Shown in pieces: positions 11,552 to 34,907 of a DNA stretch of 45,572 bases (positions within the stretch are counted from its first letter, which is position 1; each line of letters begins with the position of its first letter). The stretch is taken from the NCBI RefSeq assembly GCF_946404245.1, contig NZ_CAMJCX010000010.1, forward strand, positions 1 through 45,572, in the 5' to 3' direction. The notes beneath the pieces were generated by a model, which saw nothing but the letters and a program-made list of their open reading frames with translations, was not told where the DNA came from and did not search any database. Origin of the DNA: an uncultured Methanobrevibacter sp. Its GTDB lineage: Archaea; Methanobacteriota; Methanobacteria; Methanobacteriales; Methanobacteriaceae. Position numbers and translations under genes: made by a program.

Positions 11552-13390
11552 CTAAAATAATCCACTTTCCTCCAATTTTTCCTCAAAGTATTTTGACGGT
11601 TTATCTGCTTTTTCCTTAATTGCAACTGCAACAATGACGGTGACTATTCCAATAGCTAACAGAATAATTAATGCCGGCCAGTAATTTGACCAAACAACAC
11701 CTAATTGTGCTTCCCGTATCAGTTTGATTGCATAGGTCATAGGCATATAAGGATATAATACCTGGAAGAACTTATGCATGATTTCGATTGGGTAGATTCC
11801 TCCTGTCGCTGAGATTTGAAGAACCAAAAGAACTACTATGGCTCCTTTTCCAACAGTTCCTATTGCCGAAATCACTGAATATATCAGAACCATGAACACT
11901 ACCGATACGAGTATTGCTGAAAATATAAACAATGGATAGTTATCCACGTGAACCCCTAAAAGATAAGCTCCAATCAAGGTTACGCAAGCCTGCAATATGC
12001 TCATAACCACATAGATTAACAGTTTACCGGAATACATTTCAAATGGGGAATATTTGGTTCCTATACTTGATTTAGGTTCCATCATTACACAGGTGATTAA
12101 AGCACCAACCCACATGGACAATACAATGTAAAACGGCGCCACATTGGATCCGTAGTCCGGTACTGAAAATACTTCATTTCTATCTAACTTAACTGGTGAG
12201 AAGAAGTAATCTCCAAGTATTGTTTCGTTGATACCTGTAATTGCTGAAAGCTGGTCTGCTGTCGCTCCAAGTGAACCTGCAGCGGTGAATAATGCCTGTG
12301 CAGCTGCATTTCCAAGTAACTCTGCACCTGCTGCAAGGCTTAATGAACCTTCTGCTAATTGTACTGATCCGTCTGCTAGGTCACTGGCTCCTCCTGCGAC
12401 CTTACCTGAACCTTCTGCTAATTGTACTGATCCGTCTGCTAGGTCACTGGCTCCTCCTGCAACCTGACTTGCTCCGTCAGCTACTTTACCGCTTCCTTTT
12501 GCAAGTTCTGATGTGCCTTCAACATAATCTTTTACAGGGCCGTCCGGAATTAATGATGGGTCCACTGCTGAGTCTAACTCTTCGGAACCTTGTTGTACCT
12601 GGCTTGCACCTTGCTGTACTGCACTTGAACCTTGTTGTACTTGGCTGGCACCGCTTTTAACGTCACCCACTCCCTGCTGTACTTGGCTGGCACCGCTTTT
12701 AACCTGGCTGGCACCGTCCTGAACCTGTCCGACGCCTGATGAAACTTGGCCCGCACCGGATGAGACCTGTGCCGCACCCGCTTGAAGCTGGGTTCCTCCG
12801 CCGGCTAACTGACTTGCACCTGCTGCAAGACCTTCCTGCAATTCTCCAAGTTTTCCATATGCTGCAAGGTTAATAATCTGAACAATTTTTGCATTAAGTG
12901 TTGTATAAACGGTGTTAGCTCCTGTATCTGTTAATTTGGTAGCTACCGGATTGGATTTAACATTTACAACATATTCCAGTTTTGCCTGTTGCGGATCATC
13001 ACCCGTAATCGAAATAATGTTCTCACTCAGGTTTTTGGGTATTACTATACCCGCATAATACTTTCCGCTATGCACTCCCTTCCGAAGTTCATCTTCTGTG
13101 ACAAATGTCCATTTGAATTTGTCATTCTTCTTTAAATCTTTAACCAGTTCATTTCCAATATTTAAAGGTGTTCCTTCAAAAGTAGAACCATTGTCCAGAT
13201 TGGCTATTGCAAATTCCACATTTCCTGTGTTTCCATAAGGATCCCAACATGCCTGTATGTTTAAAAGAGCATAAAGGGATGGAAGAATAATTATTCCAAT
13301 CAAAACAAGGGTTACAATAGGATTTGAAAATGCTGATTTGAAATCGTTTTTCATTATTTCAACGATATTTCCTATGTCTTTACTTCCCAT
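11552..13390 (-). CDS. YhgE/Pip-family membrane protein
   Basis: A 612-residue membrane protein of the YhgE/Pip family (phage-infection-protein-like, ABC-2-type permease fold). One helix near residues 25-45 is followed by an extracellular region of about 350 residues, then five or six helices from about 415 to 600. The outside region contains a long run of short repeats of the form GASQVQQG / GASQLADGS / GSGKVAGG, predicted as a long coiled or helical rod. In bacteria the family includes phage receptors and parts of type VII secretion systems; the role in archaea is unknown. I choose the ATG at 13390, preceded by GTGAGA at good spacing, over a GTG three codons upstream (13399). Downstream is an adhesin-like gene, so a role in surface assembly is possible but only inferred. 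Confidence 0.85.
   Translation of the reverse strand: MGSKDIGNIVEIMKNDFKSAFSNPIVTLVLIGIIILPSLYALLNIQACWDPYGNTGNVEFAIANLDNGSTFEGTPLNIGNELVKDLKKNDKFKWTFVTEDELRKGVHSGKYYAGIVIPKNLSENIISITGDDPQQAKLEYVVNVKSNPVATKLTDTGANTVYTTLNAKIVQIINLAAYGKLGELQEGLAAGASQLAGGGTQLQAGAAQVSSGAGQVSSGVGQVQDGASQVKSGASQVQQGVGDVKSGASQVQQGSSAVQQGASQVQQGSEELDSAVDPSLIPDGPVKDYVEGTSELAKGSGKVADGASQVAGGASDLADGSVQLAEGSGKVAGGASDLADGSVQLAEGSLSLAAGAELLGNAAAQALFTAAGSLGATADQLSAITGINETILGDYFFSPVKLDRNEVFSVPDYGSNVAPFYIVLSMWVGALITCVMMEPKSSIGTKYSPFEMYSGKLLIYVVMSILQACVTLIGAYLLGVHVDNYPLFIFSAILVSVVFMVLIYSVISAIGTVGKGAIVVLLVLQISATGGIYPIEIMHKFFQVLYPYMPMTYAIKLIREAQLGVVWSNYWPALIILLAIGIVTVIVAVAIKEKADKPSKYFEEKLEESGLF
12345..12470. repeat. two 63-bp direct repeats inside the YhgE/Pip gene
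   Basis: Units at 12345-12407 and 12408-12470 share an identical first 53 bases (starting GAACCTTCTGCTAATTG). Each encodes 21 residues of the extracellular repeat region. Degenerate shorter copies continue on both sides (about 12480-12790). The near identity suggests recent duplication by slippage or recombination, in frame. Confidence 0.9.
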
Positions 13391-13802
13391 TATTCTCACT
13401 TTTCAATTGATTTTTAGTATTAAGATAGAATTAAAAGTTCAAATTGATTCACAGATTGTAATTCATAATAACTTTTTATGATTAAATTATCCGTGAAAGG
13501 TAAACTTTTCTAATATATTATATATACATTTATAGTTTTAGTTAAAAATTAAATAAAAGTGTTTCTATTAATGTAAAATTTTACGGTCAAATTTTAAGGG
13601 CAATTTAATGTAGTTTTGACATTTTTTCATAATTTAAACAATAATAAGTAGCGACTATAACATATTGTCTTGAACAATTTTTAAAGTGTTGTTTTGCGGT
13701 CAAATCTGATTTTTTCTGCAGGCCTTTTTTCATTTTCAAAATAATATTTATACTTTGAAGTAGTAATATAAATTATATTAATGATTATTTTGAGGAAATA
13801 TA
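13391..13802. promoter_or_regulatory. 412-bp divergent intergenic region upstream of iorA
   Basis: No gene is visible in this gap between the YhgE/Pip gene and iorA. A TATA-like box (ATATTTATAC, about 13744-13753) is placed correctly for iorA, with GAGG before the ATG. Two copies of CGGTCAAAT (13584-13592 and 13697-13705) plus an inverted TTTTGAC (13614-13620) are candidate regulator half-sites. The rest is AT-rich, with a possible TATA for the leftward gene around 13510-13520. Confidence 0.4.
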
Positions 13803-31046: not shown

Positions 31047-31397
31047 ATGATACCTGGTATGAATAAGAAACAAATGAAACAGATGGAAAGGCAAATGAAA
31101 AAGATGGGCATGAAAATGGAAGAGTTAGAAGGTGTCCGTGAAGTCATTATCCGTTTCGATGAAAAAGAATTGATTATTGATGAACCTAGCGTAAGTTTAA
31201 TGAATGTGATGGGTCAGGAAACCTACCAAATTGAAGGTAAAGCACGTGAAGTAGAACTTGAATATGAAGTTGAAATCCCTGATGAAGATGTTGAAATGGT
31301 AGCTAACAGTGCTAACGTTTCAGAAGATGAAGCTAGAGCAGCACTTGAAGAATGTAAAGGAGATTTAGCTGAAGCTATTATGAAGTTAAATCAATAG
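31047..31397 (+). CDS. nac: archaeal nascent-polypeptide-associated complex protein
   Basis: A ribosome-associated chaperone (116 residues) that binds emerging nascent chains as a homodimer. The N-terminus is basic and Met-rich (MIPGMNKKQMKQMERQMKKMG) and touches the ribosome; the NAC beta-barrel follows (VREVIIRFDEKELIIDEPSV...MGQETYQIEGKARE); residues about 75-116 are a UBA domain (VEMVANSANVSEDEARAALEECKGDLAEAIMKLN). All parts have the usual length. AGAGGATTAATT precedes the ATG. A phosphoesterase gene starts 5 nt after the stop and is probably co-transcribed. Confidence 0.96.
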   Translation: MIPGMNKKQMKQMERQMKKMGMKMEELEGVREVIIRFDEKELIIDEPSVSLMNVMGQETYQIEGKAREVELEYEVEIPDEDVEMVANSANVSEDEARAALEECKGDLAEAIMKLNQ

Positions 31398-31402
31398 ATA
31401 AA

Positions 31403-32146
31403 ATGACAGTTATTGCACACATATCCGATTTGCACATAAGCAGAGCAGATTTTGACGAAGAAGTGTTTATGCAGGCTGTGGCTGAGATAAATCACCTGCA
31501 GCCGGACATGATCATACTTACAGGAGATCTTACCAATAATGGTTATTATAAAGAGTTCGAACAGGCAACCCGATACTTGTCACTGTTTGAAGCGCCGTTA
31601 TTTGCAATTCCTGGAAATCATGACTCACGTAATTTAGGTTATCAGACATTTGAAGAATTAATCGGTGAGAGAAGCTGGAAACTGACTTTAGGAGATGAGT
31701 TTACAGTCATCGGTCTTGACAGCAGTTCTCCTGATGAAAGCAGAGGTCATATTGGAACTCCTCAACATATGTGGCTGGAACACCAGTTGGATGAATGTGT
31801 AATTCAGGAGAATTTCGCAATCGTTGCGCTGCACCATCATGTAATTTCCATTCCTCAAACCGGAAGGGAGCGTAACGTTTTATCTGATGCAGGTGACATC
31901 TTGAAAACTCTGACAACTCATGAAGTTGATTTGGTGTTATCCGGGCATAAGCATGTTCCAAACATTTGGAAAATTAACAACACTCTTGTTGTCAATGCGG
32001 GATCACTGTGTTCCTGTAAGTTAAGAGGAAAAAATAAAAATTCCTATAATGTTTATAACATCACTGACAGTGAAATTGAGATATTTTTGAACACTGTCGG
32101 CGGAGAAAAAATGTTATTTGGAAAGTATTCAAGAAATTCCTTATAA
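31403..32146 (+). CDS. calcineurin-like metallophosphoesterase
   Basis: A 247-residue two-metal phosphoesterase. All five family motifs are in order: HISDLHIS (D-x-H), TGDLTNNG (GDxxxxG), GNHDSR (GNHD), ALHHHV (xxHH) and LSGHKHVP (GHxH). The size and the order resemble the cyclic-nucleotide phosphodiesterase (CpdA/3',5'-cAMP) class within the family, and the active site would hydrolyse a phosphodiester or phosphomonoester. Its gene starts 5 nt after NAC with no clear ribosome site, so reinitiation is likely. A palm-domain nucleotidyl-cyclase-like protein is encoded 1.1 kb further on; a link between the two is an attractive guess, no more. Confidence 0.9.
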   Translation: MTVIAHISDLHISRADFDEEVFMQAVAEINHLQPDMIILTGDLTNNGYYKEFEQATRYLSLFEAPLFAIPGNHDSRNLGYQTFEELIGERSWKLTLGDEFTVIGLDSSSPDESRGHIGTPQHMWLEHQLDECVIQENFAIVALHHHVISIPQTGRERNVLSDAGDILKTLTTHEVDLVLSGHKHVPNIWKINNTLVVNAGSLCSCKLRGKNKNSYNVYNITDSEIEIFLNTVGGEKMLFGKYSRNSL

Positions 32147-32217: not shown

Positions 32218-33243
32218 ATGAAAGTTGTCGTTGATGCTTCTAATGTAGCTTATTATGTGAAAAATGAAAATGGCCAACCTCAAATGGCTAATATTATTGC
32301 TGCTGTTAAAGCATTAGAGGAAAGCGAAGATGAATTTGTCATTATTGCAGATGCATCACTTCGTCATGATATTGATGATAAGCAAAAGTATTTGAAATTG
32401 TTGGAAAGCGAAAATGTTGAAGAAGTTCCAGCAGGAAACGACGCTGATCATTTTATTTTAGATATAGCTACCAGTGAAAAAGCTAAAATATTATCTAATG
32501 ATAAATTCAGAGATTACGCTGCTGAATTTAGAAATATTTCTTCATTTAGAATTCCATTTGTAATCGAAAATGGTAGATTAACATTTGGAAAACCAAACAA
32601 ACCTAAAAAGGACAAGAATATCCTTCAACATATCTGTGAGGAAGTCATCAAAGAATTGAACTTTAAAAAATGGGAGATTTATACCGGTAAGGAAGGATTG
32701 GAAATTTCTCCATTAAACATTGCTAAACAAGCTATCATACGCATTGATAATGAGAATAATGCCGAATCAAAGCTTGAAAACATATTCTCAAAAATACCTA
32801 TGTTTAACAAGATTGTAGAAATGGTTGACGATGTGGAAATTGCAGCTCCTTATGTTATTTTTGTATTGGTTCATCCTAAAGATTATAAATTAGCCGTAAA
32901 AAATGCAGGTAATATTTCAGTAACTATTGCAGATAGGTTAGGTCTTGAGAAAAAACCTTTAATTGCAGTCCGTAATGATTTATTCACAAAACCAGGTAAT
33001 TTTGAATTGAACATATTGCTTGCAGATGAAGTTACTGAAAACGCACCGTATAACATTTTGGTTCGTGTCAGCGCATATGATGAGGTATTTATTAAGAGAA
33101 ACTCAAGAAATATTGCAAGTACCATAGCGGGCAGACTTGGATCATGGAAGTTCCCATTCGTTTCCGTTAAGCCGGACATGCTTTTAGAAAAACCGGGCGA
33201 TTTTGAGATAGTTCTTGAGAAGGGAGATGCGTTCGATGACTAG
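32218..33243 (+). CDS. NYN/PIN-type ribonuclease with duplicated C-terminal domain
   Basis: A 341-residue protein. The N-terminal 120 residues fit the NYN / Zc3h12a-like branch of the PIN fold: VVVDASNVA (D6, N9), VIIADAS (D45), AGNDADHFIL (D75, D77) and ILSNDKF (D95) supply the acidic metal site of an endoribonuclease. Residues 128-200 are a basic helical linker. The C-terminal part is an internal duplication: residues 210-268 (APYVIFVLVHP...KPGNFELNIL) and 276-334 (APYNILVRVSA...KPGDFEIVL) share the pattern APY.I.V.V, NI..TIA.RLG, and KPG.FE. The repeat could bind RNA or a small ligand; it is new to me. GGTGATATT precedes the ATG. Its end overlaps the next gene by 8 nt, so the two proteins should work together. 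Confidence 0.78.
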   Translation: MKVVVDASNVAYYVKNENGQPQMANIIAAVKALEESEDEFVIIADASLRHDIDDKQKYLKLLESENVEEVPAGNDADHFILDIATSEKAKILSNDKFRDYAAEFRNISSFRIPFVIENGRLTFGKPNKPKKDKNILQHICEEVIKELNFKKWEIYTGKEGLEISPLNIAKQAIIRIDNENNAESKLENIFSKIPMFNKIVEMVDDVEIAAPYVIFVLVHPKDYKLAVKNAGNISVTIADRLGLEKKPLIAVRNDLFTKPGNFELNILLADEVTENAPYNILVRVSAYDEVFIKRNSRNIASTIAGRLGSWKFPFVSVKPDMLLEKPGDFEIVLEKGDAFDD

Positions 33244-34438
33244 TTTTTTAACTAAGTCCTTCATTAGGTTAACTACTAAGCTTAATCCTATTGCTGTGGG
33301 AACTAAATTTTTTCCAACCAATACTCTTGAAACTGAGTATGTTGAACTATTCAATTATACTCAGACAATATTGTTTGAGTTGGAAAAGGCAGAAATCACT
33401 TCAGATTCAATTTTAGAAAATCTTATTAGGGATGTGGGTGCTGAAAACATTCCTAAAGATTATGATTTTTATGAATTGACTCCTGCAGAAAATAGGGTTG
33501 AAGAATATGCTTTGGTAAGTAATATTGTTATGGGTAGTGACCGTTATTTTTACATTGAACTTAAGCAGCCTTCTAATTTAATTAACGTGTTTGTTAAAAT
33601 TATTCAAAATGAAAAAGGAGAGATTGTCGAAAAAACAGCTACAGAACTTGTTGCAAGGATGTTGAGCAAAAATGATGCGATACGTGTAGCTATTGAACTG
33701 ATTGGTATTGGCCTTTCAGAAGGTATTGAAGTCATCTCTGCAGTTGGTATGACAGGTGCCGCTTCAATTGAAAGGGCAATTCATTATACTCAAAATGTTG
33801 GAAGTTTCCCAGGCATTGCATTTACAAAACTTGGAGGGGAATATGCATTAGTGTTTGATTCTCCATTTTTACTTCAGGAATCTCGTCCTGTTAATTTAGA
33901 AAATTATTTATTCATTGATTTAATCGATTCCACCAAATTCATTGATAAAAACGGTAGGAATCAGCTTGTTGACCTTATGACCGGAATCAAAAATTTCATC
34001 GAAACTGAATGTGACGGTGAATTGGAAGGTTATAGGGAAGGTGGGGATGATTTTATAGCAAGATTCCCATCTAAAGATTTGGCTATTCGTGCAGGTCTTG
34101 ATGCTGCATGGTTTGCACTGGACAACGGTGCGAAAATAAGAGCAGGTGTCGGCAGAAGCAGACGTGAAGCTGGTGAGAGGGCACAGTTGGTTGATAGTTT
34201 GGAATCAACATCTCCGCTTTCATTGGTTGTTTTCGAATTAGCTAATGGATTATATGCTTATAACATTCCATCAGAATTCACAAGAACCCTGATTAATTTG
34301 GTTGAAAATGAAAAGGCCAAATTGATTGGAGTTTTTGCATTTGTATTCATATTTGTTTATGTCATGTCTATTTTAGGACTGGGCGTATTCGGATTCGTTG
34401 GAATAATTTTGGCTTTAGCATATGCATTTATTGCATGA
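33236..34438 (+). CDS. membrane-anchored palm-domain (GGDD) nucleotidyl-cyclase-like protein
   Basis: A 400-residue protein. Residues 1-215 form an uncharacterised N-terminal domain with many acidic residues. Residues about 222-345 look like a palm domain of the class III cyclase/GGDEF/Cas10 group: YLFIDLIDSTKFID puts two acids (D228, D231) on the first strand; YREGGDDFIARF (GGDD at 269-272) forms the metal hairpin; IRAGVGRSRREAGERAQLVDSLES resembles the last strand and helix. Two hydrophobic helices (about 362-381 and 383-400) anchor the C-terminus. Product, if any, is unknown (cyclic mono-, di- or oligonucleotide). The ATG at 33236 follows GGGAG at 9 nt; ATGs nine bases earlier and a TTG further up are less likely. 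It overlaps the NYN gene. Confidence 0.72.
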   Translation: MTSFLTKSFIRLTTKLNPIAVGTKFFPTNTLETEYVELFNYTQTILFELEKAEITSDSILENLIRDVGAENIPKDYDFYELTPAENRVEEYALVSNIVMGSDRYFYIELKQPSNLINVFVKIIQNEKGEIVEKTATELVARMLSKNDAIRVAIELIGIGLSEGIEVISAVGMTGAASIERAIHYTQNVGSFPGIAFTKLGGEYALVFDSPFLLQESRPVNLENYLFIDLIDSTKFIDKNGRNQLVDLMTGIKNFIETECDGELEGYREGGDDFIARFPSKDLAIRAGLDAAWFALDNGAKIRAGVGRSRREAGERAQLVDSLESTSPLSLVVFELANGLYAYNIPSEFTRTLINLVENEKAKLIGVFAFVFIFVYVMSILGLGVFGFVGIILALAYAFIA

Positions 34439-34460
34439 TGAATTGAAAGAGAAAAATAAT

Positions 34461-34907
34461 ATGGGAAGAAAAAAAGACGACAAGAGAGTGTTGAGAAGAG
34501 GTAATGGTCGTGATACCAAACAGCATCGCAGACCTACCAATATCATTAAAAGAAATAATAAAGGGCCTCGTAATAGAAACTCTTATCGCAGCAGAAATGA
34601 TAATTGGGATAGGAATAGAAAGCCTAAAAAACGTAGTCGAAAAACTGTACTGTTAATGATTCTTGTATTGGTTGCATTTATTATCGGTGCTGGAATCGGA
34701 GTCATGTTGAGTTTTGATAATGGAAATAGCGAAGAAAATGAAACTCACATTGAAAATGTTACAGTTGAGATGACAACTCATCTAAACGAAACTAAAGAAG
34801 TCGTCTTTGACGAGTCAGATGCAGTTGATTATAATGAAAACCAGACATCAGAGATATTGGGTGCTGAGAAAAATCCATATTACTATGATGACGGTTTGGG
34901 ACATTAA
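34461..34907 (+). CDS. small membrane protein with strongly basic cytoplasmic tail
   Basis: A 148-residue protein of unknown family. Residues 1-61 are extremely rich in Arg, Lys and Asn (RRGNGRDTKQHRRPTN, KGPRNRNSYRSRNDN, RNRKPKKRSRK) and are probably disordered; such tails bind RNA, ribosomes or acidic lipid heads. Residues 63-84 are one membrane helix (VLLMILVLVAFIIGAGIGVML). Residues 85-148 are acidic with several N-glycosylation-type sites (NET, NVT, NQT) and lie outside by the positive-inside rule. The ATG at 34461 follows an AGAGAAAAATAAT stretch and lies 22 nt after the palm-protein stop. Position suggests it belongs to the same complex as the NYN and GGDD proteins. Confidence 0.72.
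   Translation: MGRKKDDKRVLRRGNGRDTKQHRRPTNIIKRNNKGPRNRNSYRSRNDNWDRNRKPKKRSRKTVLLMILVLVAFIIGAGIGVMLSFDNGNSEENETHIENVTVEMTTHLNETKEVVFDESDAVDYNENQTSEILGAEKNPYYYDDGLGH

Follow-up and report, generated by a model that had tools for sequence, protein, structure and literature searches.

In a screen for genes of pseudomurein archaea, Lupo et al. 2025 listed as cluster D a Zc3h12a-like NYN protein (OG0001213) and a nucleotide cyclase with at least two transmembrane segments (OG0001214), with a range of Methanobacteriales plus Methanopyrus (PMC11915815). Their main text, which covers the cluster in table rows and one clause, reads it as nucleic acid metabolism or signaling, probably unrelated to the wall (PMC11915815). 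Two palms are also found in Cas10 (PMC11346440), and MK0296 of Methanopyrus has been named as an archaeal GGDEF relative (PMC2904730). Methanothermobacter is one of the archaea in which cAMP was detected in 1986, and the adenylate cyclase of most archaea probably belongs to a class not yet recognized (PMC8646023).

Here, a 45,572-nucleotide stretch from an uncultured Methanobrevibacter sp. (the window) was found to carry an NYN-palm gene pair that is almost certainly cluster D, given the same domain calls, number of transmembrane segments, adjacency, and range, a match drawn from these features and not from sequence identifiers. Both the pairing and the term “nucleotide cyclase” were in print before and are not a new discovery; what goes beyond the cluster D listing is the tandem arrangement of the palms, the lack of an NYN domain in Methanopyri, the repeat-bearing C-terminal domain (CTD) of the NYN protein, the linkage to genes for NAC and a phosphoesterase, and the conservation of individual residues. 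The literature searched yielded neither the layout of one active and one degenerate palm in tandem, nor the CTD as a constant partner, nor the link to archaeal cAMP, nor any assay of the P0002 family, and guessed locus names of the Methanothermobacter orthologues led to no relevant paper. In the Methanopyrus-like genome G163, the palm gene lies at 101-103 kb, and no MK0296-like protein was found at 275-315 kb, the guessed position of that number.

The first-pass annotation had described three genes on one strand, the first two overlapping by 8 nt (P0001 and P0002) and the third following after a gap of 22 nt (P0003), and this layout was confirmed by the open reading frames and their coordinates (Table 1). 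Elsewhere in the window, the reverse strand (11552-13399) encodes a predicted membrane protein whose membrane segments are separated by a long run of GASQVQQG-like repeats.

Table 1. Coordinates of the gene cluster and of the protein parts discussed in the text
Feature	Position	Strand	Basis or remark
NAC (nascent polypeptide-associated complex) gene, first in conserved cluster	31047..31397	+	PF01849 E 1.7e-15, PF19026; synteny
Calcineurin-type (CpdA-like) metallophosphoesterase	31403..32146	+	PF00149 E 6.5e-20; synteny
P0001, NYN-CTD protein	32218..33243	+	341 aa; ORF check
NYN nuclease domain of P0001: D6, N9, D45, D77, N94, D95	32218..32610	+	Pfam, Foldseek, alignment
CTD of P0001, two tandem modules	32842..33231	+	Repeat comparison; conserved with Methanopyri
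P0002, tandem-palm cyclase-like membrane protein	33236..34438	+	ATG 33236, 400 aa
Palm 1 of P0002, residues ~98-212	33527..33871	+	AlphaFold2 model, alignment, repeat comparison
Palm 2 of P0002, residues ~218-346; D228, GGDD 269-272, R/K 267	33887..34273	+	Profile match, model, alignment, repeat comparison
Two C-terminal hydrophobic helices of P0002 (361-379, 383-399)	34316..34432	+	Predicted membrane location, AlphaFold2 model
P0003, small membrane protein	34461..34907	+	ATG 34461, 148 aa

No match to P0002 was obtained from the Pfam scan, from NCBIfam, or directly from a PDB sequence search; in the Pfam scan the cut-off of PF00211 was not reached (a genome search gave sub-threshold matches only), and PF05165 (GTP cyclohydrolase III) and PF00990 were without a match. 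A profile of 22 homologues, in contrast, matched the cyclase domain of Rv1900c (E = 1.3e-4) and, weakly, Ma1120, and the Rv1900c alignment placed D228 and G270-D271 of P0002 on the FTD and GD metal sites. Structure prediction, which the first-pass annotation had proposed as a check, gave a palm fold: the AlphaFold2 model (41 sequences; mean pLDDT 83.5, pTM 0.76) has a small N-terminal part, two palms with the same order of strands and helices, and the two C-terminal membrane helices that had been claimed. Compared with the PDB by Foldseek, the model matched the class III adenylyl cyclases AC9, Ma1120, and Rv1900c at the top of the list and GTP cyclohydrolase III (2qv6) lower down, with modest TM-scores (target-normalized, ~0.5 for one palm). 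Together, profile match, model, and Foldseek bear out the palm fold that had been claimed for the second protein and relate it to nucleotide cyclases. That claim had been of a single palm, however, and although the palm with GGDD is there, the protein has two, of which only the second keeps the motif. A comparison of the two palm profiles gave E = 1.4e-13 (best of 30 column-shuffled controls, 0.003), by which sequence measure the palms are an internal duplication.

Residue conservation was read from 68 distinct P0002 sequences, including five from Methanopyri (~26% identity). D228, S232, and G269-G270-D271-D272 of palm 2 were invariant (68/68), and with D228 and D271 palm 2 holds the two aspartates of the class III metal site. 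Of the residues that the first-pass annotation had singled out, all were present, but D231 proved variable (57 D, 5 N, 4 G, 2 E). The residue after GGDD is F, L, V, or I in the homologues, which departs from the GG(D/E)EF motif. As for the class III base-specifying pair (Lys plus Asp/Thr), only the first candidate lines up: position 267, which is R or K in 68/68 sequences and aligns with a lysine of Ma1120. An alignment read by eye contained no conserved Asn-x3-Arg after the GxG strand, a region in which P0002 resembles GTP cyclohydrolase III more than it does class III cyclases. Palm 1 lacks the DxxS and GGDD motifs in the alignment and has invariant residues of its own (R103, Y104, K145, E179, R180, K198, and E202); the charged ones among them would fit an active site shared by both palms, as in C1/C2 cyclases.

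Residues 1 to ~130 of the partner protein P0001 form a Zc3h12a-type NYN domain (PF11977, E = 8e-16; 58.6 bits versus a cut-off of 23), for which matches above cut-off were also found in relatives, and Foldseek returned ZC3H12C/Regnase matches (target TM ~0.6-0.7) that place it in the PIN-like fold. Among 63 sequences, D6, N9, D45, D77, N94, and D95 were invariant or nearly so. The acidic site first described from D6, D45, D75, D77, and D95 is thus retained with the exception of D75, which is variable (50 D, 9 N, others). The NYN site is intact, and P0001 is likely an RNA-cutting protein. One genome has an in-frame TAG inside its NYN gene (G003:C1:142944-143960), which may reflect an assembly error, a pseudogene, or readthrough. 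The CTD of P0001 comprises two modules of ~65 residues each (~208-273 and ~274-338; repeat comparison E = 2.6e-12, best shuffled control 0.012), with R252, R297, and R306 as invariant basic residues. The Pfam scan had no match for the CTD, and structure searches gave no convincing match to a solved structure outside the NYN part of P0001.

Homologues of P0002 were found in 148/152 genomes of the phylum, including 90/91 good ones, in one copy each with a few fragments, and homologues of P0001 in 146/152, again including 90/91 good ones; P0001 is likewise absent from the four genomes in which P0002 is missing. The NYN-palm pair is therefore a single-copy core feature rather than an accessory one, a pattern at odds with a mobile signaling module. 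In a spread of 297 archaeal genomes, P0002 was limited to Methanobacteria and five genomes taken as Methanopyri (G057 and G163-G166), with an overall identity of ~26% between the two groups. The gene order in Methanobacteria is NAC, CpdA-like phosphoesterase, NYN-CTD, and palm, and it extends to the most distant Methanobacteria genome (G049, locus L091). Gene co-occurrence in relatives, for which the first-pass annotation had also proposed a survey, is near-universal and tight: the NYN and palm genes were neighbors on one strand in 65/65 loci compared, which argues against chance, and were separated by -11 to +38 nt (median, -8), with an overlap in most loci. Outside these 65 loci, the gap widens to ~0.5 to 2.5 kb in four genomes (G075, G152, G153, and G155), and in two (G087 and G156) the genes lie on different contigs. 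The spacing between phosphoesterase and NYN genes is 0.3 to 1.2 kb in several loci.

All five Methanopyri encode a CTD gene adjacent to the palm gene, yet the Zc3h12a NYN domain (PF11977) had no match anywhere in their genomes, and no phosphoesterase adjoins the pair. CTD and palm thus form the conserved unit, and neither the NYN domain nor an adjacent phosphoesterase is needed for the core function; an NYN domain as the obligate partner of the palm protein was rejected. The NYN domain was either gained in Methanobacteria or lost in Methanopyri. At each of the five Methanopyri loci (L092 and L124-L127), an aspartokinase-like gene points away from the CTD-palm operon on its other side, and downstream of the operon come a thiC-like gene and then a gene that looks like an RNA ligase, with a KLDGTN motif clear in 4/5. 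A phosphoesterase homologue (30% identity, E = 8e-26) is present at ~281 kb of G163 (L129:6159-7031), unlinked to the palm gene.

The calcineurin-type phosphoesterase that had been noted just upstream of P0001 stands, and its linkage is conserved in Methanobacteria. Against the NCBIfam CpdA model (PRK11148) it scored 64.9 bits, below the cut-off of 225, so that by sequence it is related to CpdA but short of that model's threshold for the 3',5'-cAMP phosphodiesterase family. P0003, for which Pfam and NCBIfam searches gave nothing, consists of a K-, R-, and N-rich stretch of ~60 residues, one hydrophobic helix, and an acidic Asn/Thr-rich C-terminus. Relatives also have a small membrane protein at this position, with a variable N-terminus. 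The basic tail described earlier is present here but is not general to the locus, with only ~8 residues before the helix in Methanothermobacter-like loci. Across 34461-34907 and the same place in six loci of relatives (L070, L071, L086, L087, L090, and L095), the third-gene product keeps the helix (about AFxxGxGxGI) after a tail of ~8 to 60 residues and has an Asn/Thr-rich C-terminus.

Taken as a whole, P0002 may be a membrane-bound and probably active palm cyclase with an RNase-bearing partner, a reading, predicted catalysis and product included, to which we give somewhat less than an even chance. P0002 would be a membrane-anchored nucleotide cyclase-like enzyme of two fused palms, in which the two metal-binding aspartates (D228 and D271) would come from palm 2 and the opposite face of the active site probably from the degenerate palm 1, an arrangement known from pseudo-heterodimeric class III cyclases. 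The enzyme would probably convert an NTP to a cyclic or otherwise modified nucleotide, and cAMP is the guess that lends itself best to testing. The constant partner of P0002 would be the CTD of P0001, presumably in contact with the palms, and as this partner carries the NYN RNase in Methanobacteria, the RNase would be brought to the membrane there and may be governed by P0002 or its product. The CpdA-like phosphoesterase of the cluster could remove that product.

P0002 is, in that regard, a concrete candidate source of the cAMP reported in Methanothermobacter. The report of cAMP in the lineage, the class III-like site, and the CpdA-like neighbor speak for this candidate; the missing Asn-x3-Arg speaks against it, as do two results from 17 genomes, Methanopyri included. 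PF00027 cNMP-binding proteins were found in none of them; the resulting lack of a classical cAMP receptor weighs against classical cAMP signaling. CYTH-domain proteins were found in 17/17 (e.g., G000:C8:3439-3933) and are a rival source of cAMP, or a triphosphatase. A search of the same number of genomes with PF00211 gave no cyclase over cut-off, and one of its two sub-threshold matches was P0002 itself. A bolder extension, which we think unlikely, is that P0002 founds a new class of nucleotide cyclase with fused active and degenerate palms, that it is the source of cAMP or a new signal in pseudomurein methanogens, and that the repeat CTD reads this signal and, in Methanobacteria, switches the NYN RNase.

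Alternatively, P0002 might bind a nucleotide without converting it and serve as a membrane scaffold that anchors the NYN-CTD RNase near translating ribosomes, as part of a small RNA-decay complex with a housekeeping role and a link to NAC. NAC is a ribosome-associated factor, and its place in the gene cluster, the near-universal single-copy core distribution, the intact NYN site, and the two predicted membrane helices all agree with such a complex; nevertheless, a scaffold would have no need of D228 and GGDD, which are invariant across the ~26% identity split, and Methanopyri retain the palm protein without a detected NYN domain of the Zc3h12a type. We think the scaffold unlikely. A metabolic enzyme of some lineage-specific pathway that, like GTP cyclohydrolase III, hydrolyzes or opens a nucleotide and makes no signal seems decidedly unlikely. 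Palm 2 aligned with palm 2 of GTP cyclohydrolase III at E = 4.4e-5 when eight sequences of the latter, two of them near-identical, were used (five near-identical ones had been uninformative); the motifs GGDD and GGDN coincide, and the segments after them are alike; 2qv6 is in the Foldseek list, and the Methanopyri operon continues into the thiC-like gene. Palm 1, however, failed to align with palm 1 of that enzyme, such a role would not usually involve a membrane anchor or an RNase partner, and a gene of its own encodes the true GTP cyclohydrolase III in 48/61 genomes searched, on which ground P0002 as that enzyme itself was rejected.

Control of pseudomurein wall synthesis from the membrane would account for the restriction of P0002 to Methanobacteria and Methanopyri among the 297 archaeal genomes and for the recovery of the pair in the screen of Lupo et al. 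(PMC11915815). Shared ancestry of the two groups would explain this distribution equally well, no recognizable wall genes adjoin the pair here or in Methanopyri, and in the view of Lupo et al. themselves cluster D probably has nothing to do with wall synthesis (PMC11915815); we consider a role in the wall improbable. The clustering of a nuclease with a GGDD palm and membrane helices also recalls defense modules of the Cas10/mCpol/CBASS type, but a single-copy core gene with a conserved neighborhood in nearly all genomes is a poor fit to these, PADLOC models did not match the palm protein and matched the NYN protein only weakly and in part, and no known effector was recognized beside the pair in the window. 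The phyletic pattern already nearly refutes the defense reading, which is barely credible, and a mobile or defense module was rejected on the core distribution and the lack of PADLOC support.

The cyclase reading makes the P0002 family a near-universal single-copy cyclase candidate for Methanobacteria, with specific residues to mutate. An active P0002 would tie RNA turnover to a membrane cyclase in methanogens common in the gut and rumen; an inactive one would remain an uncharacterized membrane protein in the core of the whole Methanobacteria group.

Each of the known systems that P0002 and its partner resemble differs from them in turn. With Cas10 and mCpol, P0002 shares a GGDD palm, but it has no PADLOC match, no recognized CRISPR or 2TM-beta context, and a core rather than mobile distribution. 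P0001 has the NYN fold and acidic site of Zc3h12a/Regnase and of CRISPR-associated NYN RNases (PMC11346440), with a lineage-specific repeat CTD in place of a zinc finger and no CRISPR linkage. GTP cyclohydrolase III (PF05165, MJ0145) likewise has two tandem palms per chain, GGDN where P0002 has GGDD, and a similar segment after the GxG strand, yet it is a separate gene in the same genomes, lacks C-terminal hydrophobic helices in the sequences read, and has a palm 1 that is unrelated to that of P0002 at the sensitivity used. The class III cyclases (Rv1900c, Ma1120, and mammalian AC9) share with P0002 the palm fold and the metal-binding Asp pair, a basic residue of P0002 near the base-specifying position is a candidate counterpart of theirs, and AC9 also has two palms in one chain. 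P0002, on the other hand, has no PF00211 match over cut-off and no clear Asn-x3-Arg, carries GGDD in place of xxGD, and combines its palms with two C-terminal membrane helices and an NYN-CTD partner.
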